From the IMG/VR virus record IMGVR_UViG_3300033182_000320, positions 1 to 22,572 of that record: a stretch of DNA of 22,572 nt; one strand, given 5' to 3'. Both the position numbers and the translations under genes were made by a program. This DNA is from a virus. Positions 243 to 21,084 of the stretch are shown piece after piece (positions within the stretch are counted from its first letter, which is position 1; every line of letters starts with the position of its first letter). The notes under the pieces were generated by a model. That model saw only the letters and a program-made list of their open reading frames with translations. It made no database searches and was not told the origin of the DNA.

Positions 243-1204
243 AAGTTTACGAAGTATCACAAGGTACCAACGAAAGTACATTTACTAGAGGCATTTCAAA
301 ATTAGCTAGTGAAATTTATAATGCTGTCACTGGTCACGGTGTGTCATCTAGTATGTCCAAACACAAAGGCGTCGATGCAATTATAGATATCTGGGGTAGT
401 GTAGAAAGAAACTTAAAACCAGGTGTAGGGATCGTTAATAGAAAAAGATTACCAGCAATTCAAAAAAGATTTAATCGATTAGCACAATACGCTGAAGAAT
501 TTCAAACTCTTAATTCTAAAATAGTAGACTTAGAAAAAAATATACAAAATATGGAAGGTTCTTGGTCAATTAGCACTAGATTTGAGAAGAAAAAACTAGA
601 AGCAGAATTAAGAAAATTACTAGATCAAAAAGAAGACTTACTAGAAAAAATGATCAATAATACTATAGAAGCTAAAAGACTTCAATATGATCCGCGTCCA
701 GAATTAGATCGTATTATACCAGAATCTAAAAAAAAACTTAAAGAAGGCGTAACTTCATTCCTTATTAAATGGTTTGAAAAACGCGGCGCTAAATTTACAC
801 AAACACAAAAAAATACACTAGAATTGCATCATGCCAAATATAATAGCAACGAACAACAAATAAACAAACTTACAGCAGAATCTAATGCTGGAGAAAATAT
901 TGATTTCAAACAACTAGATCGTCTACACAAAGAACAAGAAATTCTAAAAGATGAAATAACTACCATTGGCATAGAAGCAGGTGCAAGGGTAAGAAAACCT
1001 GTTAAAGAAGCAGACGCAGTTATTTCAAGTGGCGAATTACGTAGATATATCCGTGGACTAATCGACGATGCTATTGACAAAGAAGACGACATCAATAAAC
1101 TATCTCAAATACTTAAAATGCTTATCGGTAAAGAAATCAAATCTCGTGGTAAGCGTTATGTAATTACCAGCGAAGATATTCGTGCAGCGTTAAATGCAAA
1201 ATGA
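239..1204 (+). CDS. Coiled-coil protein with MKVYE-type N-terminus, probable virion or head-interior protein
   Basis: This is a 321-residue protein, strongly charged and Lys/Glu rich. Long predicted coiled-coil stretches lie around residues 70-150 and 200-240 (heptad-like runs with LEKNIQNMEG and KKLEAELRKLLDQKEDLLEK). The start MKVYEV is nearly the same as the next gene's MKVYEIL, which suggests a capsid-targeting leader. However, the expected hydrophobic-x-Glu cut site is poor here: the nearest Glu is in GTNES at about residue 12. The C-terminus (ISSGELRRYIRGLIDDAI and SEDIRAAL) looks like a compact helical domain. It starts in an ATGA overlap with the upstream gene and ends in an ATGA overlap with the downstream gene. 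No enzyme motif is visible. An internal head or scaffold-associated role is inference from the leader and the neighbourhood. Confidence 0.75.
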   Translation: MKVYEVSQGTNESTFTRGISKLASEIYNAVTGHGVSSSMSKHKGVDAIIDIWGSVERNLKPGVGIVNRKRLPAIQKRFNRLAQYAEEFQTLNSKIVDLEKNIQNMEGSWSISTRFEKKKLEAELRKLLDQKEDLLEKMINNTIEAKRLQYDPRPELDRIIPESKKKLKEGVTSFLIKWFEKRGAKFTQTQKNTLELHHAKYNSNEQQINKLTAESNAGENIDFKQLDRLHKEQEILKDEITTIGIEAGARVRKPVKEADAVISSGELRRYIRGLIDDAIDKEDDINKLSQILKMLIGKEIKSRGKRYVITSEDIRAALNAK

Positions 1205-1404
1205 AAGTCTACGAAATACTAAATGAATGGGGCAGGATTGTAAAAGGTGTTAACACAACAGTAGATGTCGGTGTTGACGAAATTCCTCGCCAAGCAGAAA
1301 AATTTGGTAATAAAGTAGATAAGGACGGAAAGCCACCAACTTTGTCTAGTAAAGTAAAAGGAAAGTCAACTAATGTCCTTTATAACTTAGGAATGACAAA
1401 ATGA
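1201..1404 (+). CDS. Small protein with capsid-targeting-like leader (MKVYEILNE)
   Basis: This small basic protein has 67 residues. It opens with MKVYEILNEWGR, which fits a T4-style capsid-targeting sequence with a possible prohead protease cut after L-N-E (residue 9). The remainder would be about 58 residues, including a Lys/Gly-rich part (KFGNKVDKDGKPP, then SSKVKGKSTNVLYNLGM) with no recognised fold. In T4 the analogous internal proteins are small, basic, packaged with DNA and injected. Here that role is inferred only from the leader, size and charge. The gene is ATGA-coupled on both sides, to the coiled-coil gene before it and the HAD phosphatase after it. Confidence 0.75.
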   Translation: MKVYEILNEWGRIVKGVNTTVDVGVDEIPRQAEKFGNKVDKDGKPPTLSSKVKGKSTNVLYNLGMTK

Positions 1405-2165
1405 AGGCAGGCGATATTACAGGTAAGATATTAGTTATCTTTGACATCGACGACACACTTGTACATACACAAACAGAAGTGCATGTTGTTAAGGACGGTG
1501 TAACCATTCGTACATTAAACAGTCATGAGTTTACACATTACAAGTTACAACCAGGCGAATCATTTGACTTTGAAAACTTTCGAAATGCCAAGGAATTTTT
1601 TGACAAACACAAGCCTATCATACCAATGATGGACCAACTTAAACGTGACATTCATAGAGGTAACAAAGTTGTTATGGTAACTGCTCGTGCAGACTTTGAT
1701 GATAAGGAACTGTTCTTAGATACATTCCGCAAGTACAATGTTGAAATAAATAAGGTACACGTATACCGTGCAGGCAATCTAAAAGGTGGCAGCACGGAAG
1801 AACGCAAGAGACGAATTATCAAAACATTATTAGATAAAGATGATTACTCTAAAGCAATTATGTATGATGATGCTAAACCTAACTTAGACTTATTCGTTAG
1901 TCTTAAAAGAGAACATCCTAACACAATGTTTTATGCTTGGCATGTTAGTCCAGAAGGACAAGCGTCAGAGTATATGCGTGAAGATGTTAGCGAAAACTTT
2001 GCTGACGGTAAGAAGAAAGGCAAAAGTCGTCCTGGTAGAGTAAAGAAGGCTGGTGCTAGTTGTAAAGGTAGTGTTACAAGCCTACGTAAGAAAGCAAAGA
2101 AGTATAGCGGCGAACGTGGTAAAATGTATCACTGGTGTGCTAACATGAAGGGTGGTAAGAAGTGA
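1401..2165 (+). CDS. HAD-superfamily phosphatase with basic Cys-containing C-terminal tag
   Basis: The protein has 254 residues in two parts. Residues 9-190 are a HAD hydrolase: motif I is FDIDDTL with nucleophile Asp15 and acid/base Asp17, motif II is VTARAD with Thr94, and motif IV is MYDDAKPN with Asp156-Asp157. The layout is like the 3'-phosphatase domain of T4 polynucleotide kinase, but no kinase domain is present, so the substrate (nucleic-acid end, nucleotide or small phosphate ester) is unknown. Residues 203-254 form a separate very basic tail with Cys221 and Cys246 (GRVKKAGASCKGSV, then YHWCANMKGGKK). I recall similar tails on other marine T4-like phage proteins; such a tail could bind DNA or a metal. 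The gene has no clear capsid-targeting leader but lies inside the run of genes that do. It starts in an ATGA overlap. Confidence 0.85.
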   Translation: MKAGDITGKILVIFDIDDTLVHTQTEVHVVKDGVTIRTLNSHEFTHYKLQPGESFDFENFRNAKEFFDKHKPIIPMMDQLKRDIHRGNKVVMVTARADFDDKELFLDTFRKYNVEINKVHVYRAGNLKGGSTEERKRRIIKTLLDKDDYSKAIMYDDAKPNLDLFVSLKREHPNTMFYAWHVSPEGQASEYMREDVSENFADGKKKGKSRPGRVKKAGASCKGSVTSLRKKAKKYSGERGKMYHWCANMKGGKK

Positions 2166-2698
2166 AGATTAACGATCTGTTAACAGAGTCTAAGAAAGAA
2201 CTGGTACTAGAAAAACTTCCTTGTAGTAAGGACGGATTAGCACCTGTTATGAGCAAGGAAACCATCGATTACCATTACGGTAAACTTGCAGCAGGTTATG
2301 TTAAACGTTACAACGCAGGTGAAGGTAATAAGAAGTTTAATGAAGCAGGTGCTTTTCTGCATAACATTTTCTTTCCACAAATGTGCGAACCAAAGTCTAG
2401 CAACAAGCCAAGTGGTGCTAGTGAAGAACTGATCAATCGCAAGTATAAGTCATTTGACAAGTTTAAGGAAGCGTTTACAAAGGCTGCTATAGGTATACAA
2501 GGCAGCGGTTGGGTTTACATGAGTAAAGATGGTAGCATTAAGACCATCGTAAATCACGAAGTAAAGAATGATATTGCACTATTAGTTGACTGGTGGGAAC
2601 ATGCCTGGGCATTAGACTACCAAAGCGATAAGGCTAAATATTTAAACAACATTTGGAAAATTATTAACTGGGACGTGGTTAACACGAGATTATTATGA
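2162..2698 (+). CDS. Iron/manganese superoxide dismutase homologue with capsid-targeting-like leader
   Basis: The protein has 178 residues and starts at a GTG overlapping the previous stop (GTGA). Residues 16-178 follow the Fe/Mn-SOD family from end to end: KLPCSKDGLAPVMSKETIDYHYGK, the His motif FLHNIFF, GSGW, then DWWEHAW and NIWKIINWDVVN. The four metal ligands are all present as His38, His67, Asp143 and His147 (E. coli FeSOD His26, His73, Asp156, His160), and the gateway Tyr34 is Tyr46. Differences: the second-shell His30 is Leu42. The position four before the second His ligand is Gly63, as in Mn-type enzymes, and His132 seems to occupy the outer-sphere Gln site. The domain is slightly shorter than the usual 190-210 residues. 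The extra N-terminus MKINDLLTESKKELVLE has hydrophobic-x-Glu sites (LTE, VLE) like phage capsid-targeting leaders, so delivery into the virion is a reasonable inference. Confidence 0.85.
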   Translation: MKINDLLTESKKELVLEKLPCSKDGLAPVMSKETIDYHYGKLAAGYVKRYNAGEGNKKFNEAGAFLHNIFFPQMCEPKSSNKPSGASEELINRKYKSFDKFKEAFTKAAIGIQGSGWVYMSKDGSIKTIVNHEVKNDIALLVDWWEHAWALDYQSDKAKYLNNIWKIINWDVVNTRLL

Positions 2699-3819
2699 AA
2701 GTATTTGAAATTTTAGAAGCACACGGTAACAGTAAAGTATACGACAAGTGCTGGAAAGGTTATAAAAAAGTTCCAGGCAAGAAGCGTGGTGAAAAAGGAT
2801 CGTGTAAAAAAGAAAGTTTAGAAGAAGGTTTAGGTCAAAAACTTTTAATAGCGTTTGCTACAGTTGGCGGACTATTACTTGGCGGATATGTTGGTATGGA
2901 AGATCACAGACTTGCTGAAGAATGGTTAGAAGTCTACGATGACCTTAAAGAAAAAGATCCTGTAAAAGCAGAAGAACTTAATCGTTTAGTTAACCAATAC
3001 AAATACACAAACTATAAACAATCTATGCTTAGAAATATGACTAAACATAAGATTGAAAGAATTATTAATGATTTTAAAAATCAAGAATTAGGCAATGATG
3101 TAAAAGAAGGTATATTTGACTTTTTTGGCAGCGATGAGCCTGAAGTAAATGATAAAGGATTTCCTTACTTTACAGGTGATGAAGAAACAGATCTACCTGT
3201 AGTTGTATATATACTGAAAGCATACAAAGGCAGCGAAGATAAAACTTTAAGATATCTTGTTAAAGAATTAAAATATCCTCATGTAAAAGCTTCTCTTTAT
3301 ATCATTAGAGCACAAACTCCGGGTGTAGCTGACAAGTATGCTAAATTTAAACCTCAAAAGCCTAAAGTAAAAGAATCAGCAACAAAAAATACTCAGACAC
3401 AAGAACTAGCAGAATATAATTATAGCGATTATGCTGATGCTTATGATGACTCTACCGGGTATAAATTAAAATCAAAACTTTTAGCAGCGATAGCATTTGC
3501 AGAAGAAAAAGTGTTAAGCATGTTCTACGGTAAAGAAGAAGCAGAAGAAATGATGAAAGATTCTCTTAAGATGTGGGGCACTATTATTGATAAACACGAA
3601 GCAAAGAAAAATTCAGTAAAAGAAACAGCAACAGCAGGTGCTACAAGTGCAGGTGCTATTGCCACAGTAGCAAGTGTGCCTGGTGCAAAACGAAAAGTAT
3701 CTAAAAAAGGCAAATACGGTGCTCCAACTGCTCCACAAGCAACTAATAAAGATGGCACTGCTAAAAACGCACTTGACTTATCAAACAATCTGATGGGTGG
3801 AAAGACTATTAGAAGATAA
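2695..3819 (+). CDS. Probable proteolytically processed head protein with multiple V-K-E sites and CWKGYKKVPG module
   Basis: This 374-residue protein opens with MKVFEILEAHGN, a capsid-targeting-like leader with a candidate cut after I-L-E (residue 8). A basic Cys module follows at once (residues 14-40; Cys19 in CWKGYKKVPGKKRG, Cys37 in GSCKKE), related in look to the DUF5872-type motif of viruses. Further candidate cut sites of the form hydrophobic-x-Glu before a small residue are LEE/G at 44, VKE/G at 138, VKE/S at 227 and VKE/T at 310. One membrane-like segment spans about residues 50-68 (LLIAFATVGGLLLGGY). The C-terminus is a low-complexity Ala/Thr/Gly and Lys region (TATAGATSAGAIATVASVPG). 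If cut at every site it would yield about five fragments. ATGA-coupled to the SOD gene upstream; a short intergenic regulatory region follows. Confidence 0.75.
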   Translation: MKVFEILEAHGNSKVYDKCWKGYKKVPGKKRGEKGSCKKESLEEGLGQKLLIAFATVGGLLLGGYVGMEDHRLAEEWLEVYDDLKEKDPVKAEELNRLVNQYKYTNYKQSMLRNMTKHKIERIINDFKNQELGNDVKEGIFDFFGSDEPEVNDKGFPYFTGDEETDLPVVVYILKAYKGSEDKTLRYLVKELKYPHVKASLYIIRAQTPGVADKYAKFKPQKPKVKESATKNTQTQELAEYNYSDYADAYDDSTGYKLKSKLLAAIAFAEEKVLSMFYGKEEAEEMMKDSLKMWGTIIDKHEAKKNSVKETATAGATSAGAIATVASVPGAKRKVSKKGKYGAPTAPQATNKDGTAKNALDLSNNLMGGKTIRR

Positions 3820-4359: not shown

Positions 4360-4989
4360 ATGCTTGCGTCAGAGATTCTTACAGAATGGTGGAAGGATTT
4401 ATTAGTACACAACCTTCCTAAACTTCGCAAAATGCTTGGAATGGCAGAAAAAGGATCTCCTGAATATAAAGACATTTCTAAAGCTATTGCATCTAAAGAA
4501 AGAGAAGCAGCAAAAGTAGCAGCGAAAAGAGACGAATTACAAAAAACAACAAGCAGGATTGAAACAGATCCTGAGAAACTTGCATTACAAAAACAAATTC
4601 AAACATATCGCGGTGAACTTAGCAAACGTGAAAGAGAAAGACAAGCTCAACTAGCAGAACTAGAAAAAGTAAGAGCTAACTTTGAAAAGATGGATACTAG
4701 TGCGCTACAAGCAATTATGAAATCAGAAAGAAAAGGTTCTGACTTTTATAACTTTATTAAAGACATAGTAGATAGCAGATTAGCAAAACAAGATTTATTA
4801 AAAAGTGTTTCAGGTAATATCAAACAAGGTACATCAACTGGAGCACAAGCAGCGGCGGACGCACCATGGACAATAATGGGTCTTAAGGGCGGAAGAAAAG
4901 AATTTAGAAAAATACTAAACAATCCGCAACACCCACGACATGCCGAAGCAAAAAAATTACAAAGCGAATACAAAGGGTCAGAACAATGA
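4360..4989 (+). CDS. Coiled-coil protein with capsid-targeting-like leader (MLASEILTE)
   Basis: The protein has 209 residues. The leader MLASEILTEWWKD carries a possible prohead protease site after L-T-E (residue 9). Residues 40-115 are almost uninterrupted helix with strong coiled-coil character (KEREAAKVAAKRDELQK, and GELSKRERERQAQLAELEKV). The C-terminal third is Gly/Lys containing with APWTIMGLKGGRKEFRKIL and no recognised fold. No catalytic motif is visible. The start lies two bases after the upstream stop, with GAAGAG at a suitable distance. The stop overlaps the next ATG. A core, scaffold-like or internal head role is inference from the leader and the coiled coil. Confidence 0.75.
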   Translation: MLASEILTEWWKDLLVHNLPKLRKMLGMAEKGSPEYKDISKAIASKEREAAKVAAKRDELQKTTSRIETDPEKLALQKQIQTYRGELSKRERERQAQLAELEKVRANFEKMDTSALQAIMKSERKGSDFYNFIKDIVDSRLAKQDLLKSVSGNIKQGTSTGAQAAADAPWTIMGLKGGRKEFRKILNNPQHPRHAEAKKLQSEYKGSEQ

Positions 4990-7271
4990 ACGATATTAGA
5001 AAGTTATTAGAAAGCGTAGATAAATTAAACGAATCACAAAATCACGATTTTCTAAATACTATTGTAGACAAATATGCTAAACCAGGAATGAAATTTTCTG
5101 ACATTGCTAATTTAGAAAAAGAAGCAATTGCTGCTAAACCACCAGAAGGTGGATTTTTATCTGGTCTTACTAATAAGTTATTAACTAATGATTTTAAGAA
5201 AAAGTATGTACTTGCTCACGCTTCTAGTAAATTAGGTCTACCAGGATTATATGACTCTCAAGGAAGATACTTACATTACTTAGATGACAGCGGTGAACCT
5301 GCAACTGCTGGAAACGCTAACAAACAAGAAGCAATAAAAATTAACGACGCTGGTTTACTTCCTCCTAGTGTTGCAACTTCGTTTAAATTAGATAATAAAA
5401 GTGGAGCACCAGGTGTTCCTGTAGATGACGAAACTAGTTTATCTCCAGGTAACCAGCGTGCTTCGACTTGGAAGAACCCAAATGTTAAAGACGGAAATGC
5501 TGCTGGCGCACCTTCACGTTGGCAAACACAGTTAAATAAAACTGGTGTTGATAGCAGTTCTATAACACTAAGATCGACTAACAAAACATATAGCTATTCC
5601 AATCAAGCAGATATAAGAACTGTTAGTAAAGAATACGGTAAATTAATCGTTCGCTATCAAAAATTAATGAAAAAGATGAACGAAAGTGCTCCTATTAGTT
5701 TGCGTGGTTATTTAAAAGAATATGCTATTCAAGATTTATTGCTTGAAGCATTAACTGTAGCAGAACAAAATGAATTAAAAGTAATATACCAAGACTTAAT
5801 GACCATTGCAAACTGGACCATTAAAGATTCTAGCGGAAAAAGAGTGCCTGTAATAGGTGAGTTTAATGTAAGAGATATACGCGATAAATTAAAAAATGCT
5901 CCTAGTTTTGTTAGAGACTCTACTCCAAAAGCAACAGCAGACTGGAACAAAGATTCTGGTATGAACTTAGATAGTCCAGAAGATGTAGGAAGCGGAACTC
6001 CAGGTAAGTTTTCTAGCGGATTTTCTCGTTCTTTAGCAGACTTTGCTAAGTCAGGTAAGAAAGGATTGTCAAACGATCCGGATGAGATACCTGCTATTAA
6101 AGAACTACAAGGATTTTTAAATGAAATAGGACTTCCTATTGGAAAGGTAGACGGAGTATACGGTCCTAACACCATGAACGCTGTTAAAAAGTTACAAGAA
6201 TTAACTGGCGCAAAAGTCGACGGCGATGTAGGTCCTGAAACTATCGCCGATATCATAATGTTAAAAAATCTTAAGTGGGGTAAGAACGGTGATCTAACTT
6301 CAACTCATTTAATGTCTTACATGGATGAAATAGAAGATTTAATAGGAAAAACAGGCGGAGCTCAAACATTCCCTGCAGGAGCAAATCCAGCTGGTGCACC
6401 AGATAGTGCAATGTTTAAATCTCCGTCCGCAGATGATATGAAGAATGATCAAAAATTCCAAAGTCAATTACAAGATTTAGGATTTGAAGAATCTAGAGAT
6501 TTTAGTTTCCGCGGACTAATTAATCTTGTTGAAAACATGTTAACTGAAGGATTATCGGCTCGCGAAAAAGAAAGATTACAACAGTTAATAGCAGATTTAC
6601 AAACATTGAAGAATAACCCAAATGCTCCTAAAGGTATTAAAAGTAAAGTTGATACACTTATTGCAAGAGCTAATGATGCATTAAAAGCACCAGAAGCAGA
6701 ACCAGAAGAACCTAAAGATGCAGTAGGCGCAGTGAAAAGTATCGGTGATCAATTAATCAAAGCATTTTCTGGAGCCGGAACTGTTGAAGACATGGTGTGG
6801 AACGCTCTTGAGAAATTACAAACGCAGCAAGAGTTTGATGCTTTAATAAAACAATATCCTGAAGTAGGAGAAGTATTAAGGGGTCAAGACGAAACTAGTC
6901 CGTTACTAGGACCAATGGGTATGAACGAATTAACATACTCTGAAAGAGAAAAAGTAAATAAAATACTTCAGCGCAAAGGCATTGATCTTTGGAAGGGATC
7001 TAAAGAAGAACCTAAAAAAGATACAGGATTAGGACCTAAAGATGCTAACATGCCAGACCAACTTAAATTTGCAGAGCCTGTAACTGCTAGAGAACCAACT
7101 CCAGATGAAATGAAAGATCCTAAGTTCAAGTCGATGCTTAAAGATTTAGAATTAGAATCTGTAGAAGATGCTAGAGATGTTGTTGCAGAATTTGCAGGTA
7201 AAGAAGCAGAAGCAATGAAAGCGTTATCTCCTGAATATCAAGAAAAATTTAAAAGAGCATTAGGTAAATAA
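4986..7271 (+). CDS. Large virion-associated protein with peptidoglycan-binding domain and internal duplications
   Basis: The protein has 761 residues. The N-terminus MNDIRKLLESVDKLNESQ gives two close hydrophobic-x-Glu sites (LLE/S and LNE/S). Residues 367-424 are a PG_binding_1 domain (VDGVYGPNTMNAVKKLQ, then VDGDVGPETIADI). Two segments are duplicated. Residues 238-272 (SLRGYLKEY, LLLEALTVAEQNELKVIYQDL) match 507-541 (SFRGLINLVENMLTEGLSAR, LQQLIADL). Residues 479-500 (PSADDMKNDQKFQSQLQDL) match 705-723 (TPDEMKDPKFKSMLKDLEL). The first duplicated unit has its own L-L-E/A (254) and L-T-E/G (521) cut-like sites. Residues 590-624 look like an annexin-type repeat (SGAGTVEDMVWNALEKL). The rest is polar and low in order. 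The peptidoglycan domain suggests contact with the cell wall during entry or assembly. No lytic catalytic domain is recognisable. ATGA-coupled upstream; TAATG downstream. Confidence 0.8.
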   Translation: MNDIRKLLESVDKLNESQNHDFLNTIVDKYAKPGMKFSDIANLEKEAIAAKPPEGGFLSGLTNKLLTNDFKKKYVLAHASSKLGLPGLYDSQGRYLHYLDDSGEPATAGNANKQEAIKINDAGLLPPSVATSFKLDNKSGAPGVPVDDETSLSPGNQRASTWKNPNVKDGNAAGAPSRWQTQLNKTGVDSSSITLRSTNKTYSYSNQADIRTVSKEYGKLIVRYQKLMKKMNESAPISLRGYLKEYAIQDLLLEALTVAEQNELKVIYQDLMTIANWTIKDSSGKRVPVIGEFNVRDIRDKLKNAPSFVRDSTPKATADWNKDSGMNLDSPEDVGSGTPGKFSSGFSRSLADFAKSGKKGLSNDPDEIPAIKELQGFLNEIGLPIGKVDGVYGPNTMNAVKKLQELTGAKVDGDVGPETIADIIMLKNLKWGKNGDLTSTHLMSYMDEIEDLIGKTGGAQTFPAGANPAGAPDSAMFKSPSADDMKNDQKFQSQLQDLGFEESRDFSFRGLINLVENMLTEGLSAREKERLQQLIADLQTLKNNPNAPKGIKSKVDTLIARANDALKAPEAEPEEPKDAVGAVKSIGDQLIKAFSGAGTVEDMVWNALEKLQTQQEFDALIKQYPEVGEVLRGQDETSPLLGPMGMNELTYSEREKVNKILQRKGIDLWKGSKEEPKKDTGLGPKDANMPDQLKFAEPVTAREPTPDEMKDPKFKSMLKDLELESVEDARDVVAEFAGKEAEAMKALSPEYQEKFKRALGK

Positions 7272-12954: not shown

Positions 12955-13287
12955 ATGAAATACGGAAGTTATTTTGATGTAGGCGGCACTGTTGTAAAAC
13001 AAGATGATCGCTATATTGTTAAAGATAATACAGAACTAAACAACTTAGTTCTTAGTTCTACAAGACTTAATCCAAACAAAAGTACTTCTGGACATAAACA
13101 TGAAGGTCAAGAAGAAGTATATATGTTTATTACTGGTAGCGGTGAAATGGAATTAGACGATGAAAAGTTTTCTGTTACTGCTGGAGATATTGTTACAATA
13201 AAAGATGGAGTATTTCATCGTGTCCATGCTGGGCAGTATGGTTGTTATTTTATTTGTGTATTTGACGGCAAAAGAGATCAAAAATAA
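12955..13287 (+). CDS. Small cupin-fold protein
   Basis: The protein has 110 residues and a single cupin barrel. Cupin motif 1 is GHKHEGQEEVYMFITGSGEM, giving His47, His49 and Glu53 as probable metal ligands. Motif 2 is AGDIVTIKDGVFHRVHAG with His88. The full ligand set suggests a metal-binding, catalytically competent barrel like those of small sugar-phosphate isomerases or epimerases, or sensor cupins. The substrate cannot be told. AAGG at 12942-12945 lies ahead of the ATG. The next gene, a sugar-nucleotide-type SDR enzyme, starts two bases after the stop, which favours a sugar-related role. Confidence 0.8.
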   Translation: MKYGSYFDVGGTVVKQDDRYIVKDNTELNNLVLSSTRLNPNKSTSGHKHEGQEEVYMFITGSGEMELDDEKFSVTAGDIVTIKDGVFHRVHAGQYGCYFICVFDGKRDQK

Positions 13288-13288
13288 C

Positions 13289-14017
13289 ATGCGTATATTA
13301 TTAACAGGACACAAAGGGTTTATCGGTAGCGAGTTATGGAAACAACTACGTTATGACGGTCATACTGTATACGGTATTGACTTAAAAGAAGGCCAAGATG
13401 TTCTTACCTGCGATTTAAACTATGAAGTAGACGTAGTTATTCACTTAGCAGGTAAATCAGGTGTAAGAGAAAGTTTAAAGAACGCAGGTGCATATTGGTA
13501 TAATAATGTAGAAGGAACAAAGCGCATACTTGAACGTTTTAAAGATACTAGAGTAATATATGCTAGTTCAAGTTCAGCATATGAACCGCATCTTAATCCT
13601 TATGCAGCATCCAAACTAATGTGCGAATATGCTGCTGAAAATCATAAAAATGCACTCGGATTAAGATTGCACACAGTATATTCTGATACTCCAAGAGAAG
13701 GAATGTTTTTGGATAAACTTTCAAAAGATACGCTGGAATATACAACAAATCATTATAGAGATTTTATACATTTAACAGATGTATGCAATGCTTTCAAATT
13801 AATTATCGAAAGTAAATTAAAAGGTGTAATGGATGTAGGAATGGGTTATAGTGTTAGTATCAAAGATATTGCACCTAATCTTCCAATCCGTCTAAATACA
13901 CCACATGAAAGAAGTCACACACAGGCTAACACAAAATTATTGTCAGAACTAGACTTCAAACCTAAATATAGTATAGAAAAGTTCTTGACAGACAAAGGCA
14001 TAGAGCATAAAATATAA
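13289..14017 (+). CDS. NAD-dependent epimerase/dehydratase (extended SDR family)
   Basis: The protein has 242 residues from the ATG at 13289. A start at 13205 would lie deep inside the cupin gene and add a meaningless extension. The N-terminus MRILLTGHKGFIGSELW has the GxxGxxG nucleotide-binding motif. Ser94-96 (YASSSSAY) and Tyr105-x3-Lys109 (NPYAASK) form the SDR catalytic set. Later landmarks LRLHTVYSDTPREGMF and RDFIHLTDVCNAF are typical of nucleotide-sugar epimerases and dehydratases. It is shorter than the usual 300-330 residues, mostly in the substrate-binding C-terminal part, so specificity is unknown. It would act in the cytoplasm on an NDP-sugar. The end of the gene carries the likely promoter of the clamp gene. 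Confidence 0.88.
   Translation: MRILLTGHKGFIGSELWKQLRYDGHTVYGIDLKEGQDVLTCDLNYEVDVVIHLAGKSGVRESLKNAGAYWYNNVEGTKRILERFKDTRVIYASSSSAYEPHLNPYAASKLMCEYAAENHKNALGLRLHTVYSDTPREGMFLDKLSKDTLEYTTNHYRDFIHLTDVCNAFKLIIESKLKGVMDVGMGYSVSIKDIAPNLPIRLNTPHERSHTQANTKLLSELDFKPKYSIEKFLTDKGIEHKI
13985..14013 (+). promoter_or_regulatory. Sigma70-type promoter for the sliding clamp gene
   Basis: TTGACA at 13985-13990, a 17-base spacer and TAAAAT at 14008-14013 (one mismatch to TATAAT) lie inside the end of the SDR gene. The -35 and -10 boxes are 53 and 30 bases before the ATG at 14038, exactly as in the promoter before dsbA. AAGGAG follows at 14024-14029. The shared geometry raises confidence above what the hexamers alone would give. 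Confidence 0.65.
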
Positions 14018-14037
14018 CTTCATAAGGAGAAACAGGC

Positions 14038-14769
14038 ATGAAAGATATTTTACAAGACATAGTTGCGCATACACACGCACTAGGTTTCTTATCACTAGTT
14101 AAAGTCACTTCAGAAAATGGCAAAACTAGTATTGATTCAATGGCAGAGGATCGTTCAGTTATTCTTTCTGCAGAAACACATAATGCAGTAAACGAGTTTA
14201 CCGGCGTATTTGGTATGCCTAACTTAGAAAAGTTGAACCTGCACTTAAAGAATCCAGAATATAAAGATAACGCAAAAATTGAAGTAGTAAGTGCAGAACG
14301 CAACGGCGAAGTTATTCCTACACATATTCACTTTGAAAATGCAGCAGGCGACTTCCAAAATGATTATCGCTTTATGAATAAACAAATCATTGAAGAGAAG
14401 TTGAAGACTGTTAAGTTCAAAGGTGCTAATTGGGATGTTACCTTTACTCCTGCTATGGCAAGTATTGCACGTATGAAGTTAATGAGTGCTGCGCATACCG
14501 AAGAAGTAACATTTGCTGTTAAAACAGAAGACGGTAACTTAGTATTTTACTTTGGTGATGCAAGTACACACGCAGGTTCGTTCGTGTTCCAGCACGATGT
14601 AGGCGGAGAACTAAAGCATACTTGGAGTTGGCCAGTAGCACAAGTTCAGAGTATTCTTAATCTAGACGGCGACACGACTGTAAGTATTTCAGATCAAGGT
14701 GCCATGATGATTTCAGTAGATTCTGGCTTGGCAAAATTTGATTATATCTTACCTGCACAGAGTAAGTAA
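14038..14769 (+). CDS. 45: gp45-like DNA polymerase sliding clamp
   Basis: The protein has 243 residues (T4 gp45 has 228). The sequence runs as two similar beta-rich halves without catalytic motifs. The first half has NAVNEFTGVFGMPNLEKLNL, like the gp45 LNGFLGILSLV stretch. The second has MASIARMKLMSAAHTEEVTF followed by short beta strands and ends in AKFDYILPA. The protein would form a trimeric ring that holds DNA polymerase on DNA and, in T4, also activates late transcription with gp33 and gp55. The call rests on the layout and on gene order near gp43, not on a search. A strong AAGGAG precedes the ATG, and a promoter of the dsbA type lies 53 bases upstream. TAATG joins it to the TGT-like gene. 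Confidence 0.72.
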   Translation: MKDILQDIVAHTHALGFLSLVKVTSENGKTSIDSMAEDRSVILSAETHNAVNEFTGVFGMPNLEKLNLHLKNPEYKDNAKIEVVSAERNGEVIPTHIHFENAAGDFQNDYRFMNKQIIEEKLKTVKFKGANWDVTFTPAMASIARMKLMSAAHTEEVTFAVKTEDGNLVFYFGDASTHAGSFVFQHDVGGELKHTWSWPVAQVQSILNLDGDTTVSISDQGAMMISVDSGLAKFDYILPAQSK

Positions 14770-16331
14770 TGACCGAGATGAACACAGATTTAACAACCAG
14801 TCAAAATGACTATGCGTTGTTTTTGCCGGCAACGTCTGGCTTCTATGCGTCATTTATTGGATATCAAAGAATGCGATATCCTTATGTACAACCGTCAAGA
14901 ATCCCGCAAAACTTTGTAAACGATGTTGAGAGTTTAAATTTCTTAGACCCAAATAACGGATTGTTTTATTATAAGTGGTGCTTGTATAGCGCAGGCCATG
15001 CAAACTTAGATTTAAACAAACAAGACGATAGAGAAGAAATGTTTAGAACTAGAGATCGTTCAGGTACTAGTTGGGTACTCGGTGACTCTGGCGGATTCCA
15101 AATCGGTAAGGGTAAGTGGGAAGCAGATTGGAAAGATCCAAACTGCCCGGCGGCACAGAAGAAACGTAGTCAAGTATTAAACTGGATGGATAATCTAATG
15201 GACTATGGAATGTGCTTAGATATTCCAGCGTGGGTTGCTCGCAGTCCAGAAGGTCAAAAAGCAACTGGTATTTCTACTTACGCAGAAGCAGTACAAGGAA
15301 CTTACTTAAACAACGAATACTTTATTAATAATCGTAACGGCAACTGTAAGTTCTTAAATGTACTACAAGGTGAAAATCACGCAGACGCAGACGATTGGTA
15401 CAGTCGCATGAAGAAGTTTTGTGATCCAAAAGTATATCCAGATGCGCACTTTAACGGCTGGGCAATGGGTGGTCAGAATATGTGTGATGTTCACTTAGTA
15501 CTAAAGCGTTTGGTTGCATTGAGATTCGACGGATTGCTGGAACAAGGGTTGCATGATTGGATGCACTTCTTAGGTACATCGAAACTAGAATGGGCTGTAT
15601 TACTTACAGACATTCAACGTGCTGTTCGTAAATATCACAATCCAAACTTTACTATTAGTTTTGACTGTGCTAGTCCGTTCTTAGCAACCGCTAATGGTCA
15701 AATGTACATCCAGACAGAAATTGAAGATCGTAAAAAATGGTTATACAGAATGTTGCCTACACTAGACAATAAGCAATATGCCGGCGATACTAGACTGTTT
15801 AGAGATGCATTAATACAAGATGGTGTGTTCCCATACGTCGAAAACAGTCCTGTACTAGACGGTGTTAAAACAAATGAGATTTGTGTATACGCTCCAGGCA
15901 ACCTGAATAGAATGGGTAAAGAAAATAAAACTTCTTGGGATAGTTTTACTTACGCAATTCTTATGGGACATAATGTTTGGATGCACCTTACTTCCGTGCA
16001 AGAAGCAAATCGTCAGTATGATGCAGGACTAACTCCTGCTATGTTGGTACAAGAACGTTTCGACAGAGTCTTCTTTAGAGATGTTGTAGATGCAATTTTT
16101 GCAACAAGTGACAGAGGCGAAGCAGATAGAATTGTAGAAGAATTTAGTCGTTTTTGGATGGCTATTCCTGGTACACGAGGTGCTGTAGGCAAGCGCACTG
16201 TTAATGCTAGTACACATTTCCATAACTTGTTTGAAGAAGTAGAACCAGAACCGTCTGAGCCAGATACCTGCGAAGATTTTACCGAAGAACAAGAACACAA
16301 TTTAGAAGTATTGGAAGAAAGCGTAGAATGA
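14769..16331 (+). CDS. TGT/DpdA-like transglycosylase, candidate 7-deazaguanine insertion enzyme
   Basis: The protein has 520 residues. TGT-fold signatures appear in order: LGDSGGFQIGKG (106-111; Asp106 matches the TGT active-site Asp), CLDIPAW (Asp151), FLNVLQGE (about 195-202, like GIVQGG), GWAMGG (230-235), HFLGTSK, and FTISFDCASPF with Asp299 at the nucleophile site. The Cys/His zinc cluster of bacterial tRNA TGT is not visible in the C-terminal part. The enzyme family swaps guanine for a 7-deazaguanine base: in tRNA for TGT, in DNA for phage DpdA. In a phage, DNA modification that blocks restriction is the better guess, but RNA cannot be excluded. The acidic C-terminal tail (EPEPSEPDTCEDFTEEQEH) is a phage-type extension. 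Coupled to the clamp gene by TAATG and to the next gene by ATGA. Confidence 0.72.
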   Translation: MTEMNTDLTTSQNDYALFLPATSGFYASFIGYQRMRYPYVQPSRIPQNFVNDVESLNFLDPNNGLFYYKWCLYSAGHANLDLNKQDDREEMFRTRDRSGTSWVLGDSGGFQIGKGKWEADWKDPNCPAAQKKRSQVLNWMDNLMDYGMCLDIPAWVARSPEGQKATGISTYAEAVQGTYLNNEYFINNRNGNCKFLNVLQGENHADADDWYSRMKKFCDPKVYPDAHFNGWAMGGQNMCDVHLVLKRLVALRFDGLLEQGLHDWMHFLGTSKLEWAVLLTDIQRAVRKYHNPNFTISFDCASPFLATANGQMYIQTEIEDRKKWLYRMLPTLDNKQYAGDTRLFRDALIQDGVFPYVENSPVLDGVKTNEICVYAPGNLNRMGKENKTSWDSFTYAILMGHNVWMHLTSVQEANRQYDAGLTPAMLVQERFDRVFFRDVVDAIFATSDRGEADRIVEEFSRFWMAIPGTRGAVGKRTVNASTHFHNLFEEVEPEPSEPDTCEDFTEEQEHNLEVLEESVE

Positions 16332-17203
16332 AAGGGTTAATTATTGGTATGGGTATTGGCGGACTGTATCAGTCCGTCCTTACTACATTAGGGTATGATA
16401 TTGTAACTGTAGACACTAATCCTGATAAAAATGCTGACTTTACTGATGTAGACTCAGCTATTGAAACACACAAAAACTTTGATACCGTACATATTTGTAC
16501 TCCAAATTTTACTCATAAGGAGTTAACCGAAAAAGTTGCTCCTATTAGTAAAATTGTATTTGTAGAAAAGCCAGGATTTAAAAACGCAGCAGAGTGGCTA
16601 GATGTTATTACTAAATTTCCAAACACACGTATTATGATGATTAAGAATAATATGTGGCGAGATAACATTAAGGATTTACAAGAATTAGCCAACCGTTCAG
16701 ACTTAGTACGTATCGAATGGATTAGAAGAAATTGTATTCCTAGTCCTGGTAGTTGGTTCACTACAAAAGAGCTTGCATACGGCGGTGTTAGCAGAGATTT
16801 AATGCCGCATATGCTTAGTCTTTATATTGCATTAAACCCAAATTGGTTAGATAAAGAATCGATTTTTTCTAGTGCGGTCCAACAATGGAAATTAGAAGAA
16901 ATTGAAAGTACAGAATACGGAGTAATTAATCCAAATGGTGTTTACAATGTAGACGATTTGTGTATAATAGAATTTGACAACTGGCACTTAGAATCAAACT
17001 GGCGCAGTTTAGAAAAAGAAAGTAGTGCTATCGAATTTGTTTCTAACGGAGAAGTATTTGATCGGTTTGAATTAGGGTGGTGTCCAGAAGAAGCATACCT
17101 AAATATGGTTAAGGACGCTGTAGAAAACCTAAATAACAATGAGTTCTGGGACGAGCAATTTAAACAAGATTTTTGGATTCACACACAAATAGAAAAACTA
17201 TGA
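16328..17203 (+). CDS. Gfo/Idh/MocA-family NAD(P)-dependent oxidoreductase
   Basis: The protein has 291 residues. The N-terminal Rossmann fold starts LIIGMGIGGLYQS (GxGxxG at 7-12), followed by VHICTPNFTHKEL (about 54-66) and VEKPGF with Glu80-Lys81-Pro82, the signature of this family. YGGVSRDLMPHMLSLY (about 151-167) fits the usual catalytic region with a conserved His after the G-G-x-x-x-D. Members oxidise or reduce sugars, inositols or nucleotide sugars. It is a little shorter than typical 330-residue enzymes. ATGA overlaps connect it to both neighbours; the following gene encodes another dehydrogenase, so the two may work on one carbohydrate pathway. Confidence 0.85.
   Translation: MKGLIIGMGIGGLYQSVLTTLGYDIVTVDTNPDKNADFTDVDSAIETHKNFDTVHICTPNFTHKELTEKVAPISKIVFVEKPGFKNAAEWLDVITKFPNTRIMMIKNNMWRDNIKDLQELANRSDLVRIEWIRRNCIPSPGSWFTTKELAYGGVSRDLMPHMLSLYIALNPNWLDKESIFSSAVQQWKLEEIESTEYGVINPNGVYNVDDLCIIEFDNWHLESNWRSLEKESSAIEFVSNGEVFDRFELGWCPEEAYLNMVKDAVENLNNNEFWDEQFKQDFWIHTQIEKL
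16360..16376 (+). promoter_or_regulatory. Hairpin at the start of the Gfo/Idh gene
   Basis: CGGACTG and CAGTCCG form a perfect seven-base-pair stem with the loop TAT, 32 bases after the ATG at 16328. There is no T-run, so it is not a terminator. It lies fully in coding sequence. A role in translation is possible but unproven. Confidence 0.3.
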
Positions 17204-18099
17204 AAGTAAAACTTTTACATACAACAGGCAATGGCGTCTTCGAAGAAACAGAATGGGAAAAGCTAGAACCTAGCGAAACTGAAATTGAAGTAAAGGCTGT
17301 AATGACTGGTGTTTGTCGTAGCGATATCGACATGATGGAAGGCAACTTCGGTCCTCTTCCATTATCGATGCAAGGACACGAAGGGCTAGGTATAGTAACA
17401 AAAGTAGGTAGTAAAATTGACGATGTTAAGGTAGGCGATTACGTGGCAACACGCGGAGAACCCGCTTATGCTGATTACTACAATACTCGTAAAGATGAAT
17501 ATGTACGTGTACCTGCACTAGATCCTAAATACATTGTAGAACCTGTTGCATGCGGTGTTAACGTTGTTATGCAACCTTATAACGAAATTAAAAATCGTTC
17601 CGGACACCAATCAAGATGTTTAATCTTAGGAAGCGGTTTTCTTGCTTGGATTGTATACAATACATTAAACTTATTGAATTTAGAGTTTTCTGAAATTGTT
17701 GTCGTCGGAAATCACAATAAGGACTTATGGGAAGATAAATTAAGTTCTTCTTACGAAGGTGCATTTGATGTTGTGATTGACCTAAGCAGCAGGACAGATG
17801 TACTAGACAACATTGAAGTTAACAACGAAGCATTATTTGTTCTTGGCGTGCAAAAGAAACTTACGTCAGACTTTAGTAATTTATTATGGAAAGCATGTAC
17901 CGTTATTTTTCCAAGTCCTAGAACCAAAAACTTTATTCATGCAATGGAATATTCAGTAAGTTGGTTAACTTCGGGTGCATTGACTATTGACAATTTCTGG
18001 ACTCAAGGTTATAATAGAACTACAGAATGGCAGAAAGCATTTGAAGATGGTATTAACAGATCGGAAGGTTATAGCAGAGGATACATCAAGTGGGATTAA
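17200..18099 (+). CDS. Medium-chain (zinc-type) alcohol dehydrogenase family protein
   Basis: The protein has 299 residues from the ATG at 17200, which overlaps the upstream TGA; an ATG at 17173 would only extend into the previous gene. The catalytic zinc site is recognisable: Cys39 (TGVCRSDID), His60-Glu61 (MQGHEGLG) and Cys118 (VEPVACGVN). The structural-zinc Cys cluster is absent and the loop that should hold it is short. The nucleotide-binding motif is LILGSGFLAW, in which the third Gly is Ala. The protein is about 40 residues shorter than normal MDR enzymes. It most likely oxidises a polyol or sugar alcohol with NAD(P), next to the Gfo/Idh enzyme. The altered dinucleotide motif leaves cofactor preference open. 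Confidence 0.83.
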   Translation: MKVKLLHTTGNGVFEETEWEKLEPSETEIEVKAVMTGVCRSDIDMMEGNFGPLPLSMQGHEGLGIVTKVGSKIDDVKVGDYVATRGEPAYADYYNTRKDEYVRVPALDPKYIVEPVACGVNVVMQPYNEIKNRSGHQSRCLILGSGFLAWIVYNTLNLLNLEFSEIVVVGNHNKDLWEDKLSSSYEGAFDVVIDLSSRTDVLDNIEVNNEALFVLGVQKKLTSDFSNLLWKACTVIFPSPRTKNFIHAMEYSVSWLTSGALTIDNFWTQGYNRTTEWQKAFEDGINRSEGYSRGYIKWD

Positions 18100-18608
18100 A
18101 CACTGAAGAACGTCAACAAGTTAGATTTTTTACTGGTTACGAAGTAGAGCATACTATTGCTTATGGTGCTCATACTCTTTTCGTTGTAGGTATTCAACCT
18201 TTAGAAGAAATTCTTAAACTAGCCAAACATCATGAAGTAAAGCAAATTTACTTTGGTACCAGCCAAAGTTTTAACCCGTCTACACCTACTTCAGAAGAAT
18301 ATAAGCCTTGGGACGATATGATTATCGGTTGTTTGGAACAAGATTATTGGGTAGCATTAGACTTTGGTGTGGAACATGTCGAAGGTGTTATCGAATCTGG
18401 ATACTCTGAATACGAAAGATTTATTCCTATGATTAGTGTTAAGATTCCTTATATCAATCAATTAAACTATAATGCTACACTAAAAATTGACGATATTACT
18501 TGGGGGGCAACAAATCCAGGTGTATGGACACATCATTTACAAAGTCTAATGGGTAAGGATAAATTTACCTATTGGGATCAATATACACAAGACGCAGATT
18601 TAGGTTAA
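18090..18608 (+). CDS. Hypothetical protein of unknown function, GTG start
   Basis: The protein has 172 residues. The GTG at 18090 has AGAGG at 18076-18080 and overlaps the upstream gene by ten bases. The sequence is alpha/beta: RFFTGYEVEHTIAYGAHTLF, VVGIQPLEEILKLAKHHEVK, QIYFGTSQSFNPSTP, DYWVALDFGVEHVEGVI, ERFIPMISVKIPYINQLN. It has no Cys cluster, no nucleotide loop and no membrane segment, so I cannot assign an activity. I have the impression that T4-like cyanophages carry relatives. The position between two enzymes and a QueD-like gene suggests a metabolic or modification role. That is guilt by association only. Confidence 0.7.
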   Translation: MGLNTEERQQVRFFTGYEVEHTIAYGAHTLFVVGIQPLEEILKLAKHHEVKQIYFGTSQSFNPSTPTSEEYKPWDDMIIGCLEQDYWVALDFGVEHVEGVIESGYSEYERFIPMISVKIPYINQLNYNATLKIDDITWGATNPGVWTHHLQSLMGKDKFTYWDQYTQDADLG

Positions 18609-18610
18609 TT

Positions 18611-18991
18611 ATGAACGCAACAAAAAGTATTTGGGTTACCTTTCGCAAAGAAGGTATTCATATGTATCCAGGTGCAGACACTGATCCAAAGTTAGCAACA
18701 GGTGACTGGGATGACGTTTCGTTCTTGGGTGTTCCGCACAGACACATATTTCACTTCCGTGTCCGCATTGAAGTATTTCATAATGATCGCGACATTGAAT
18801 TTATTCAATTTAAGCGTTGGTTGGAACGACTGTTTGACCAAGGCACATTAGAACTCAACCACAAGTCATGTGAAATGATCTCAGATGATTTGTATGAGGC
18901 AATTTCTACAAAATATCCGAACCGCTTTGTAGAAATTGAAGTAGCAGAAGACGGTGAAAACGGTTCATTAATTTTTTATCCAGTAAATTAA
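18611..18991 (+). CDS. QueD/6-pyruvoyl-tetrahydropterin synthase-like T-fold protein
   Basis: The protein has 126 residues from the ATG at 18611; a start at 18572 would only add a basic tail from inside the previous gene. The order of elements fits the QueD/PTPS T-fold. A first strand ends in GIHMYPGA (His17). Then comes FLGVPHRHIFHFRVRIEV, in which His43-x-His45 takes the place of the HGH zinc pair. Next are IEFIQFKRWLERLF (like the V.DF..LK helix), LELNHKSCEMISDDLYEAI (like LDH..LN...PT.EN) and VEIEVAEDGENGSLIFY (like V.V.ET....A.Y). The catalytic Cys four residues before the zinc pair is replaced by Leu39. It may therefore be a divergent or changed-function member. Two genes upstream of it and beyond lies the TGT-like gene, a natural pathway partner. 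Confidence 0.5.
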   Translation: MNATKSIWVTFRKEGIHMYPGADTDPKLATGDWDDVSFLGVPHRHIFHFRVRIEVFHNDRDIEFIQFKRWLERLFDQGTLELNHKSCEMISDDLYEAISTKYPNRFVEIEVAEDGENGSLIFYPVN

Positions 18992-19007
18992 AAGAGAGTA
19001 AAATAAA

Positions 19008-19214
19008 ATGGCAAGCAACTTCCCTCCAGTAGATAAGATTTTTGACGATCTGGAAAAGTTCCGCGACTATTGTCGCTTTGAAGGTCACGTTTTTAACGAG
19101 GCTGATTTGTATAAAGACGGTGCTCGTGTATGGGAAGCATACAAAAAGCATCAAGGTTGGCTTAAGGCAAAGGCTCGCAATAAGTCGCGTAATAATAATT
19201 TTAGGGGAGCGTAA
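19008..19214 (+). CDS. Small basic hypothetical protein
   Basis: The protein has 68 residues. The ATG at 19008 follows AGAGAG at about 18993-18998. The N-terminal half is acidic and aromatic (FPPVDKIFDDLEKFRDYCRF), and the C-terminal half is basic (AYKKHQGWLKAKARNKSRNN). No family is recognised. The mixture suggests a small helical protein that could contact nucleic acid through its tail. It ends in a TAATG overlap with the glycosyltransferase gene, whose GGGGAG ribosome-binding site lies in its last codons. Confidence 0.65.
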   Translation: MASNFPPVDKIFDDLEKFRDYCRFEGHVFNEADLYKDGARVWEAYKKHQGWLKAKARNKSRNNNFRGA

Positions 19215-20308
19215 TGACTATTTTCGTTGTAGACATTGAAGCAGTTGACACACGTTATACTAAGCAATGGAAGGATCATCTTCCTAGGCAATTGCGTCAT
19301 GCTACCAACGAAGAAGTCGTTGTAATTAGCGGAGGAGAGACGCCTCAGGCTACAACGCCTGGGGCTTTCTTAAACTTTGGCGGTACTAACGTTTATAAAA
19401 GTAAACAGTTAGAAACTATTGGTGAAATGTTTTGCACAGGAAAAATAAAAGATGGTGACTATTTCCTATATACTGACGCTTGGAATCCGACGGTTATACA
19501 ACTTCGTTACATGGCTGAGTTACTCGGTGTGGATGTCAGAATTGGCGGCTTATGGCACGCTGGCAGCTACGATCCTCATGACTTCCTTGGCCGTTTAATT
19601 GGTGATAAGCCGTGGGTACGACATGCCGAAAAAAGCATGTTTTATGTGTATGACCACAACTTCTTTGCCAGCGATTTTCACATCGATATGTTTATCAGAA
19701 CATTATTTGGTTTTGAGAATCCTTGGGTAGAAGAAGATGTTGCGGAAGCACTTGCAGGCGAAGATCCTAAATTTAAGCGTGTAGGCTGGCCTATGGAATA
19801 CCTAAGCGAAAGTCTTGCAAGTTATAAAGGAATGGAGAAACGAAATCTTATCGTTTTCCCGCATCGTATTGCTCCAGAAAAGCAAGTGAATATTTTCCGC
19901 AGTTTATCTGAAAGATTACCGCAGTATGAATTTGTAATTTGTCAGGAACGCAGTCTTACTAAAAATGAATATCATAATTTATTAGGCGAAGCAAAATTAG
20001 TGTTCAGTGCTAACTTACAAGAAACGCTTGGCATCAGTTGGTACGAAGGAGCACTTGTTGGTGCTATTCCGATGGTCCCAGATCGATTAAGTTATTCAGA
20101 AATGGCATTGGACGAATTTAAATATCCGAGCGATTGGACTACTGATTTTGAACACTATCGAGAGCACATTGACGAAGTAGCAAATCGTATCGTAGGATAT
20201 ATGGAAAACTATAATACATATCTACCTATATTAGAAAAGCAAGTTAGTAAATTAAAGAAAGACTATTTCAGCGGAGCGGCATTATATGACGCAATCAAGC
20301 AAAGATAA
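19214..20308 (+). CDS. GT-B-fold glycosyltransferase (GT4-like)
   Basis: The protein has 364 residues. The C-terminal half shows the GT4-type pattern: NLIVFPHRIAPEKQVNIFRS (about 211-230), ERLPQYEFVICQ, GEAKLVFSANLQETLGISWY and EGALVGAIPMVPDRL, with an E-x7-E pair at Glu270 and Glu278 that would contact the sugar nucleotide. The N-terminal acceptor domain (GDYFLYTDAWNPTVIQLRYM, GGLWHAGSYDPHDF) is unlike common LPS enzymes. It could glycosylate host surface glycans or modified phage DNA bases; T4 itself uses GT-B enzymes on DNA. The sequence cannot decide. GGGGAG precedes the ATG. A terminator-like hairpin sits inside the gene at codons 43-52. Confidence 0.8.
   Translation: MTIFVVDIEAVDTRYTKQWKDHLPRQLRHATNEEVVVISGGETPQATTPGAFLNFGGTNVYKSKQLETIGEMFCTGKIKDGDYFLYTDAWNPTVIQLRYMAELLGVDVRIGGLWHAGSYDPHDFLGRLIGDKPWVRHAEKSMFYVYDHNFFASDFHIDMFIRTLFGFENPWVEEDVAEALAGEDPKFKRVGWPMEYLSESLASYKGMEKRNLIVFPHRIAPEKQVNIFRSLSERLPQYEFVICQERSLTKNEYHNLLGEAKLVFSANLQETLGISWYEGALVGAIPMVPDRLSYSEMALDEFKYPSDWTTDFEHYREHIDEVANRIVGYMENYNTYLPILEKQVSKLKKDYFSGAALYDAIKQR
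19342..19371 (+). terminator. Intragenic terminator-like hairpin
   Basis: GCCTCAGGC (19342-19350) and GCCTGGGGC (19357-19365) pair over nine base pairs with one U-G wobble around the loop TACAAC, followed by TTTCTT. This is the layout of an intrinsic terminator. It is one of the most GC-rich stems in the window, yet lies about 130 bases inside an intact open reading frame. It may attenuate read-through or protect RNA, or it may simply encode the protein. Confidence 0.4.
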
Positions 20309-20663
20309 AAACGAATCATTAACTATTACAACCGATACTGGTAGTTATACTATTGATTTGAACAATACCTACGGTACCACTACTACTTATATTACCACTG
20401 GCACAGATTATTATAATATAAATGACCCTAGCATAGATTGGGGAAGTATTACTATTGACGGAGACAATGACTACGACAATTTAGTTGGTAATATTAATAT
20501 ATTTGATGGATATATCGATAAAGACGAAATTGAAAAAATGTGCAAAGAATATCCAGCATTAGAAAAAGTTTGGCGCAACTTCAAAAGCGTATACGATATG
20601 TGTAAACAAGATTACGAAGGCAAGAAAAAGGCAGGTGAAATAGATGATGACATTCCATTCTAA
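20286..20663 (+). CDS. Small protein with bacterial SSB-like C-terminal tip (DDDIPF)
   Basis: The protein has 125 residues and overlaps the upstream gene by 23 bases; CGGAG lies about ten bases before the ATG. The first 80 residues are rich in Thr, Tyr, Asp and Asn with beta-like alternation (SLTITTDTGSYTIDLNNTYG, DYYNINDPSIDWGSITIDGD). The rest is helical and charged (EEIEKMC-type KDEIEKMCKEYPALEKVWRN). The last six residues, DDDIPF, are identical to the tip of E. coli SSB, which recruits many host replication and repair proteins. An OB-fold is not evident, so it may be a tip-bearing mimic rather than a true SSB. The tip codons overlap the start of the next gene in another frame. Confidence 0.75.
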   Translation: MTQSSKDKNESLTITTDTGSYTIDLNNTYGTTTTYITTGTDYYNINDPSIDWGSITIDGDNDYDNLVGNINIFDGYIDKDEIEKMCKEYPALEKVWRNFKSVYDMCKQDYEGKKKAGEIDDDIPF

Positions 20664-21084
20664 ATTCTTAAACTGGCTTGAGAAGCATGGCAGAAAGCGT
20701 GTAGTAATGGATCGATATAATAACGAACCTTACTTAACTCGCTATTACTTATTTTTAAAAGATCGCAAATGGTTTCCGTTTAACGTCTTTCTACACAACT
20801 TCCACAAAGGCGATTTAGATGACCTCCATGATCATCCTTGGCCTTATTTCACTCTTATTCTTCGTGGTGGGTATTGGGAGCATACTCCAAAAGGTAAATT
20901 CTGGCGGGCGCCTGGTCATTTTAGATTCTGTGGTTCTCGGAGTCTTCATAGGATTGAGCTCGATCCTGGTGTTAATACTTGGACGTTATTTGTTCCAGGG
21001 CCTCATCTAAGAGAATGGGGATTCATTCGCAAAGGCGAATGGGTACAGCATGAACAATACCTGAAAGAAAAGTATGAGCGATAA
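20644..21084 (+). CDS. Cupin-fold protein with HDHPWP metal motif
   Basis: The protein has 146 residues from the ATG at 20644 (a second ATG follows at 20647), with AGGTG at 20634-20638. It overlaps the upstream gene by 20 bases. The core has LDDLHDHPWPYFTLILRGGY (His62, His64), GHFRFCGSRSLHRIEL (His102) and TWTLFVPGPHLREWGF. The His pattern fits a cupin barrel with a bound metal ion, related in look to small dioxygenase-like cupins. The substrate is unknown. The C-terminal end (GEWVQHEQYLKEKYER) is helical. The gene is not a close relative of the cupin at 12955. Its stop overlaps the next gene by 11 bases. Confidence 0.75.
   Translation: MMTFHSKFLNWLEKHGRKRVVMDRYNNEPYLTRYYLFLKDRKWFPFNVFLHNFHKGDLDDLHDHPWPYFTLILRGGYWEHTPKGKFWRAPGHFRFCGSRSLHRIELDPGVNTWTLFVPGPHLREWGFIRKGEWVQHEQYLKEKYER

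Follow-up and report, generated by a model that had tools for sequence, protein, structure and literature searches.

Phage T4 packs the internal proteins IPI-III and the protein Alt into its head by means of an N-terminal capsid-targeting sequence (CTS) that is cleaved by gp21, and these proteins are injected, Alt being an injected enzyme. In the T4 record, the leaders of IPII and IPIII read MKTYQEFIAE/A and that of Alt reads MELITELFDE/D (a slash marks the known or predicted cleavage position throughout). The first 10 residues of IPIII are enough for packaging, and fusions to T4 leaders took foreign proteins into the head and onward into the host (PMC9026906). Superoxide dismutases (SODs) of the Fe/Mn type have been surveyed as SodFM1-5, which carry an HXXXHH motif whose second His is absent in SodFM4; the survey text mentions neither "virus" nor "phage" (PMC10172142). 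A Cu,Zn-SOD of Megavirus chilensis and SOD in giant-virus virions have been reported, as cited in PMC9405923. In the open papers that we searched, we found no description of a packaged or leader-bearing phage SOD, nor of the leader on EST35_0261, the SOD of jumbo phage PA5oct, and the MIJ3 paper does not mention SOD.

The window analysed here, meaning the whole stretch of DNA, is a 22.6-kb IMG/VR virus record (22,572 nt). The original prediction described a SOD gene in it, and the reading frame and its GTGA overlap were present as described, on the + strand with a GTG start and 178 codons for amino acids (Table 1). Both SOD domains of the product exceeded the curated Pfam cut-offs, with PF02777 (Sod_Fe_C) at 1e-24 (86.8 bits, cut-off 20.9) and PF00081 (Sod_Fe_N) at 1.5e-9 (38.6 bits, cut-off 27). 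Structure prediction with AlphaFold (24 sequences) gave a SOD fold with a pLDDT of 90.4, falling below 50 solely in residues 1-10, and the top PDB matches of this model in Foldseek were Fe/Mn SODs (TM about 0.8-0.85, 28-35% identity). The four metal ligands and Tyr46, which the original prediction had listed as kept, were invariant in the 24 aligned phage relatives, and the three His and one Asp ligands together with the Tyr34 equivalent were invariant in all 46 phage SODs compared. These results indicate that the gene encodes a genuine Fe/Mn SOD in a T4-like phage fragment, and we infer that the protein would dismutate superoxide.

Table 1. Features of the window around the SOD gene
Feature	Position (nt)	Strand	Basis
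Leader-bearing neighbour (MKVYEILNE)	1201..1404	+	Sequence
Gene directly upstream: HAD/polynucleotide-kinase-like domain and basic C-terminal tail (about 1983-2162)	1401..2165	+	phrog_415, 8.4e-12
Fe/Mn-type SOD, 178 aa	2162..2698	+	GTG start; Pfam, AF2, Foldseek
GTGA start/stop overlap of SOD with upstream gene	2162..2165	+	Sequence
Putative capsid-targeting leader MKINDLLTE; prohead protease predicted to cut after Glu9	2162..2188	+	Family motif, T4 CTS comparison, disordered residues 1-10
Metal ligand His38 (His26, E. coli FeSOD numbering)	2273..2275	+	Invariant in 24 aligned relatives and 46/46 phage SODs
Leu42 at gateway His30 position of cellular SODs	2285..2287	+	Leu 46/46 phage, His 29/29 cellular
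Tyr46, gateway Tyr34 equivalent, retained	2297..2299	+	Invariant in 24 aligned relatives and 46/46 phage SODs
Metal ligand His67 (His73 equivalent)	2360..2362	+	Invariant; placed by phmmer alignment, the MAFFT column being shifted by one position relative to cellular sequences
His132, probable water-coordinating C-terminal His (SodFM3/4-like)	2555..2557	+	Invariant in 46/46 phage SODs; SodFM scheme (PMC10172142)
Metal ligand Asp143	2588..2590	+	Invariant in 24 aligned relatives and 46/46 phage SODs
Metal ligand His147	2600..2602	+	Invariant in 24 aligned relatives and 46/46 phage SODs
Ala150 at Tyr166 position of cellular SODs	2609..2611	+	Ala 42/46 phage, Tyr 29/29 cellular
Leader-bearing neighbour (MKVFEILE/A), overlaps SOD stop	2695..3819	+	Sequence
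Leader-bearing neighbour (MLASEILTE)	4360..4989	+	Sequence
Leader-bearing neighbour (MNDIRKLLE/S), peptidoglycan-binding domain	4986..7271	+	Sequence, Pfam
T4-like family B DNA polymerase, marker of phage lineage	10128..12800	+	phrog_262, 1.6e-201

Ahead of its enzyme core, the window SOD carries a disordered leader, MKINDLLTE/SKK. Phage SODs start 18-27 residues ahead of the core, Vibrio 2.275.O excepted, compared with about 7 residues in cellular SODs. We compared 44 representative phage SODs, less than 80% identical to each other, and a hydrophobic-x-Glu leader with Glu at positions 6-17 was found in all 44 (loose motif), while the residue after this Glu was Ala, Gly or Ser in 41 (strict motif); because the SODs are related, these leaders are not fully independent. 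In 2,000 shuffles of the leaders, the strict motif occurred on average 2.6 times and at most 8 times, against the 41 observed, and 4-9% of the other genes in four genomes matched the leader motif. The sequences themselves diverge widely (MKINDLLTE/S, MREYIDLVE/A, MTYNFIRHYILE/G, MKNFAHFVE/S) and the form is conserved. For the loose motif alone (pattern B), three large genomes showed no significant enrichment at gene starts relative to internal Met positions, and the similarity of the leader to others in its own genome was modest (p = 0.014), while a fuller M-[KR]-phi-x-acid-phi pattern was enriched at gene starts; with pattern B not enriched, the case for the leader rests on the SOD family and on this fuller pattern. 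The comparison thus provides good support for a conserved leader form that is not due to chance. The leader that the original prediction had described is real and common to the relatives, but the conserved motif confines the tag proper to the first nine residues, MKINDLLTE, rather than all 17. No leader was present among the 30 nearest cellular SODs found (200 genomes, one phylum), and neither these nor a scan across 84,980 species of bacteria and archaea yielded a non-phage homologue with the same N-terminus, a finding that would have refuted the original prediction.

Since the SOD bears what is predicted to be a removable head-loading tag of the T4 type, it probably enters the head together with the DNA and is delivered into the next cell. 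The comparative tests favour the capsid-targeting leader of the original prediction, which as a whole is partly supported. Our main reading, to which we assign a probability of roughly 0.7, is that the protein is a phage-specific Fe/Mn SOD with a CTS of the T4 internal-protein/Alt type, and that it would be targeted to the capsid, processed by the protease and injected. Two relatives depart from the common form. The SOD at L067:5983-7095 has no N-terminal leader and is C-terminally fused to a second protein with a leader-like start (RMSLSFIKELHEAR), which begins MSLSFIKELHE/A, and the Vibrio 2.275.O SOD lacks a leader and has a C-terminal extension with LDE/S; both features would suit targeting by another route.

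The neighbouring genes had been described as virion-protein genes with the same type of leader. Similar starts were indeed found along a run at about 0.2-8.3 kb of the window, but we regard their products as putative virion proteins only. Directly upstream of sod lies a basic tail, about 57 residues long (ENFADGKKKGKSRPGRVKKAGASCKGSV...), which across phages is joined to different domains at one and the same place (window 1983-2162; L126:3375-4004; L127:2649-4004; L218:15301-15498). Its partners are HAD in the window, an ADP-ribosyltransferase in L126, a ParB-like domain in L127 and a leader alone in G026. The tail looks like a modular injected-protein cassette; a search for the tail in the phage library gave no match. 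The ADP-ribosyltransferase gene adjoins the SOD gene in L126, which recalls T4 Alt. After the polymerase, the window (12955-22130) holds cupin, nucleotide-sugar epimerase, clamp-like, alcohol dehydrogenase-like and phosphoribosyltransferase genes, and a large part of this block recurs in the same order in G026, around 48-61 kb.

An S77 (T4-type) prohead protease was found in seven SOD-bearing contigs and in six of the eight of those over 180 kb; none was found within the 22.6-kb window, which is a genome fragment. In G030, the genes surrounding the protease follow a T4-like order (portal, gp67-like, core protein, protease, scaffold-like, capsid). The major capsid proteins of four relatives and of PA5oct have in common L-x-E/[SNT]-A-[ST] at residues 39-44, which is likely the maturation site. 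In G012 (172655-172864), its flank, SATAGATSAGNVA, is found again in a small protein, just behind the leader, and the window protein at 2695-3819 contains KETATAGATSAG near residue 310, resembling the capsid site; both are stretches near-identical to the candidate site (E-SATAGATSAGNVA). The capsid protein of PA5oct is 66-70% identical to those of SOD-bearing relatives. Its SOD, EST35_0261, starts MNDSIKKYISIAE/AASS, with the leader ending SIAE/A, and is flagged ESI-MS/MS in the record; since the 93 MS-flagged proteins include cytosolic enzymes (RNR, thymidylate synthase, FtsH and DNA ligase), this flag is support for packaging and not proof of it. An MS-flagged gp67-like protein of PA5oct starts MKINDIITE/G. 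For a further MS-flagged protein, the N-termini of orthologues read MKTFKEYLVE and MKPFAKYLAE.

The sequence TAAATA, the T4 late-promoter core, ends 4-5 nt ahead of the SOD ATG in 21 of the 44 representatives. The window SOD gene is internal to an operon that begins outside the window. In the G012, G017, G026 and G030 genomes, TAAATA has two preferred positions, 15-34 nt ahead of the start and almost exactly 5 nt ahead of the ATG, and a Shine-Dalgarno-like stretch occurs in 3 of 84 genes with a spacing of 4-8 as opposed to about 40% of motif-free genes. This pattern suggests that late mRNAs of these T4-like jumbo phages are leaderless.

Two contexts of the SOD gene were found: the run of leader-bearing genes in the window lineage, and Fe-S, ribonucleotide reductase (RNR) or redox loci. 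ErpA/IscA, IscU, SufBC, NrdAB, ferredoxin or glutaredoxin genes lay near the SOD gene in 27 of 44 loci. At such loci (L013, L014, L022, L051, L075, L080, L137, L150, L153, L176 and others), sod stands beside iscU, erpA/iscA, sufC-sufB/D or ferredoxin, or else is flanked by nrdA and nrdB, with glutaredoxin present as well. The neighbourhood fits a protection of iron enzymes, and because most relatives lie near RNR or Fe-S genes, the enzyme is also likely to act within the cell that produces it. The main rival to packaging is a purely cytosolic role, in which the SOD would be an auxiliary metabolic enzyme that shields RNR and Fe-S assembly during replication and stays unpackaged, the leader serving as a docking or regulatory peptide. 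The 27 loci, the position between nrdA and nrdB in several of them and the earlier reading of a virus-borne Fe/Mn SOD as a metabolic gene (PMC12542629) speak for such a role. However, in RNR and Fe-S operons the SOD retains its hydrophobic-x-Glu leader while its partners RNR, IscU and IscA have none, the leader resembles the known T4 head-targeting tags, and about half of the SOD genes have the T4-type late motif right at the start codon. We consider a cytosol-only SOD unlikely, while the enzyme may act in the cytosol in addition to being packaged.

We then compared the phage SODs with cellular ones. Scans of IMG/VR returned 221 relatives in the first and at least 581 in the second. The scan of 84,980 species, which used patterns from conserved stretches and would let more distant cellular relatives escape, gave one match, in which the SOD is truncated and the contig, from a metagenome-assembled genome, measures 3.9 kb. 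On this contig (L124, Polaromonas MAG), a phage-like sod and erpA are joined to host-type genes that by eye look bacterial (anmK-, M23 peptidase- and tyrS-like); the two parts were probably joined at erpA as a chimera, a hint that some of the SOD phages have Burkholderiales hosts. In the tree, 46 phage SODs, including those of PA5oct and Vibrio 2.275.O, were separate from 29 cellular SODs, the latter being from one phylum with cellular SodFM3-5 outside the sample. In all 46 phage SODs, gateway His30 is replaced by Leu and a C-terminal His is present; in nearly all, Ala takes the place of Tyr166 and Leu occupies X(D-2). The span between the first and second His ligands is 28-29 residues in phage SODs compared with 46-47 in cellular ones, indicating a shortened hairpin. 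The HXXXHH motif, present in all 29 cellular SODs, is absent from the phage SODs, which have HXXXL(A/Y) (45/46) or HXXXLH (1/46). By the SodFM key, the phage SODs fit none of SodFM1-5 (PMC10172142).

The family-wide loss of HXXXHH and Tyr166, together with the shortened hairpin, could also point to a head-core or internal structural protein that has kept the SOD fold and lost useful activity. These phage SODs, however, have the four ligands, Tyr46, Glu146 and the C-terminal His invariant, a degree of conservation not expected of a dead enzyme, and the Fe-S and RNR context points to a redox function, which makes this explanation quite improbable. The idea of a common SOD of host origin whose start codon was called wrongly, for which the GTG start and nothing else speaks, is ruled out by the family comparison and has a negligible chance of being correct, as the relatives have their ATG at the same place, often directly after the late-promoter motif, the leader form is conserved and the clade is found essentially only in viral contigs.

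Returning to the packaged SOD, we infer its cleavage, packaging, injection and catalytic activity as well as its protected targets along the following course. By analogy with T4, the leader MKINDLLTE would draw the SOD into the prohead core during head assembly, and a gp21-type S77 protease would cut it after Glu9. The mature enzyme, starting SKKELVLEKLP, would be enclosed with the DNA and enter the next host, where it would remove superoxide and most likely shield iron enzymes that the phage requires immediately, such as class I ribonucleotide reductase and Fe-S proteins. For the family as a whole, we lean somewhat towards a distinct phage-only Fe/Mn SOD subfamily outside SodFM1-5 that is CTS-packed by an exchangeable leader in many T4-like jumbo phages and injected with the DNA, so that iron-dependent phage enzymes would have protection as early as the first minutes of infection. 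If this is true, phages inject an antioxidant defence with the genome, as some eukaryotic giant viruses appear to carry one, and protection from superoxide and of iron enzymes ranks among the first needs of an infecting phage. The leader would then offer a simple sequence criterion by which further injected enzymes could be recognised in the genomes of jumbo phages, where most virion proteins lack an assignment, and the altered gateway residues of the subfamily would be useful for the study of SOD catalysis and quaternary structure.

Compared with known systems, the phage SODs resemble T4 IPI-III and Alt in their short N-terminal leader, which ends in hydrophobic-x-Glu and would be removable by an S77 protease; they differ in that the cargo is a metabolic redox enzyme, the leaders vary between phages and packaging is predicted. 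PA5oct EST35_0261 and its relatives are homologous phage SODs with a leader (MNDSIKKYISIAE/A), the former MS-flagged, about 44% identical to the window SOD and annotated as a hypothetical protein. With SodFM1-5 (PMC10172142), the phage SODs have in common the fold, the four metal ligands, Tyr34 and, as in most SodFM3/4, the C-terminal His, but they have lost HXXXHH and Tyr166, their hairpin is about 17 residues shorter, and they have Leu at X(D-2) and an N-terminal leader. The giant-virus SODs are likewise viral SODs reported among virion proteins, whereas they belong to the Cu,Zn family and to eukaryotic giant viruses and have no T4-type leader (PMC9405923). A giant-virus virion SOD and the T4 leaders were already known, and their combination and the phage SOD clade appear to be new.
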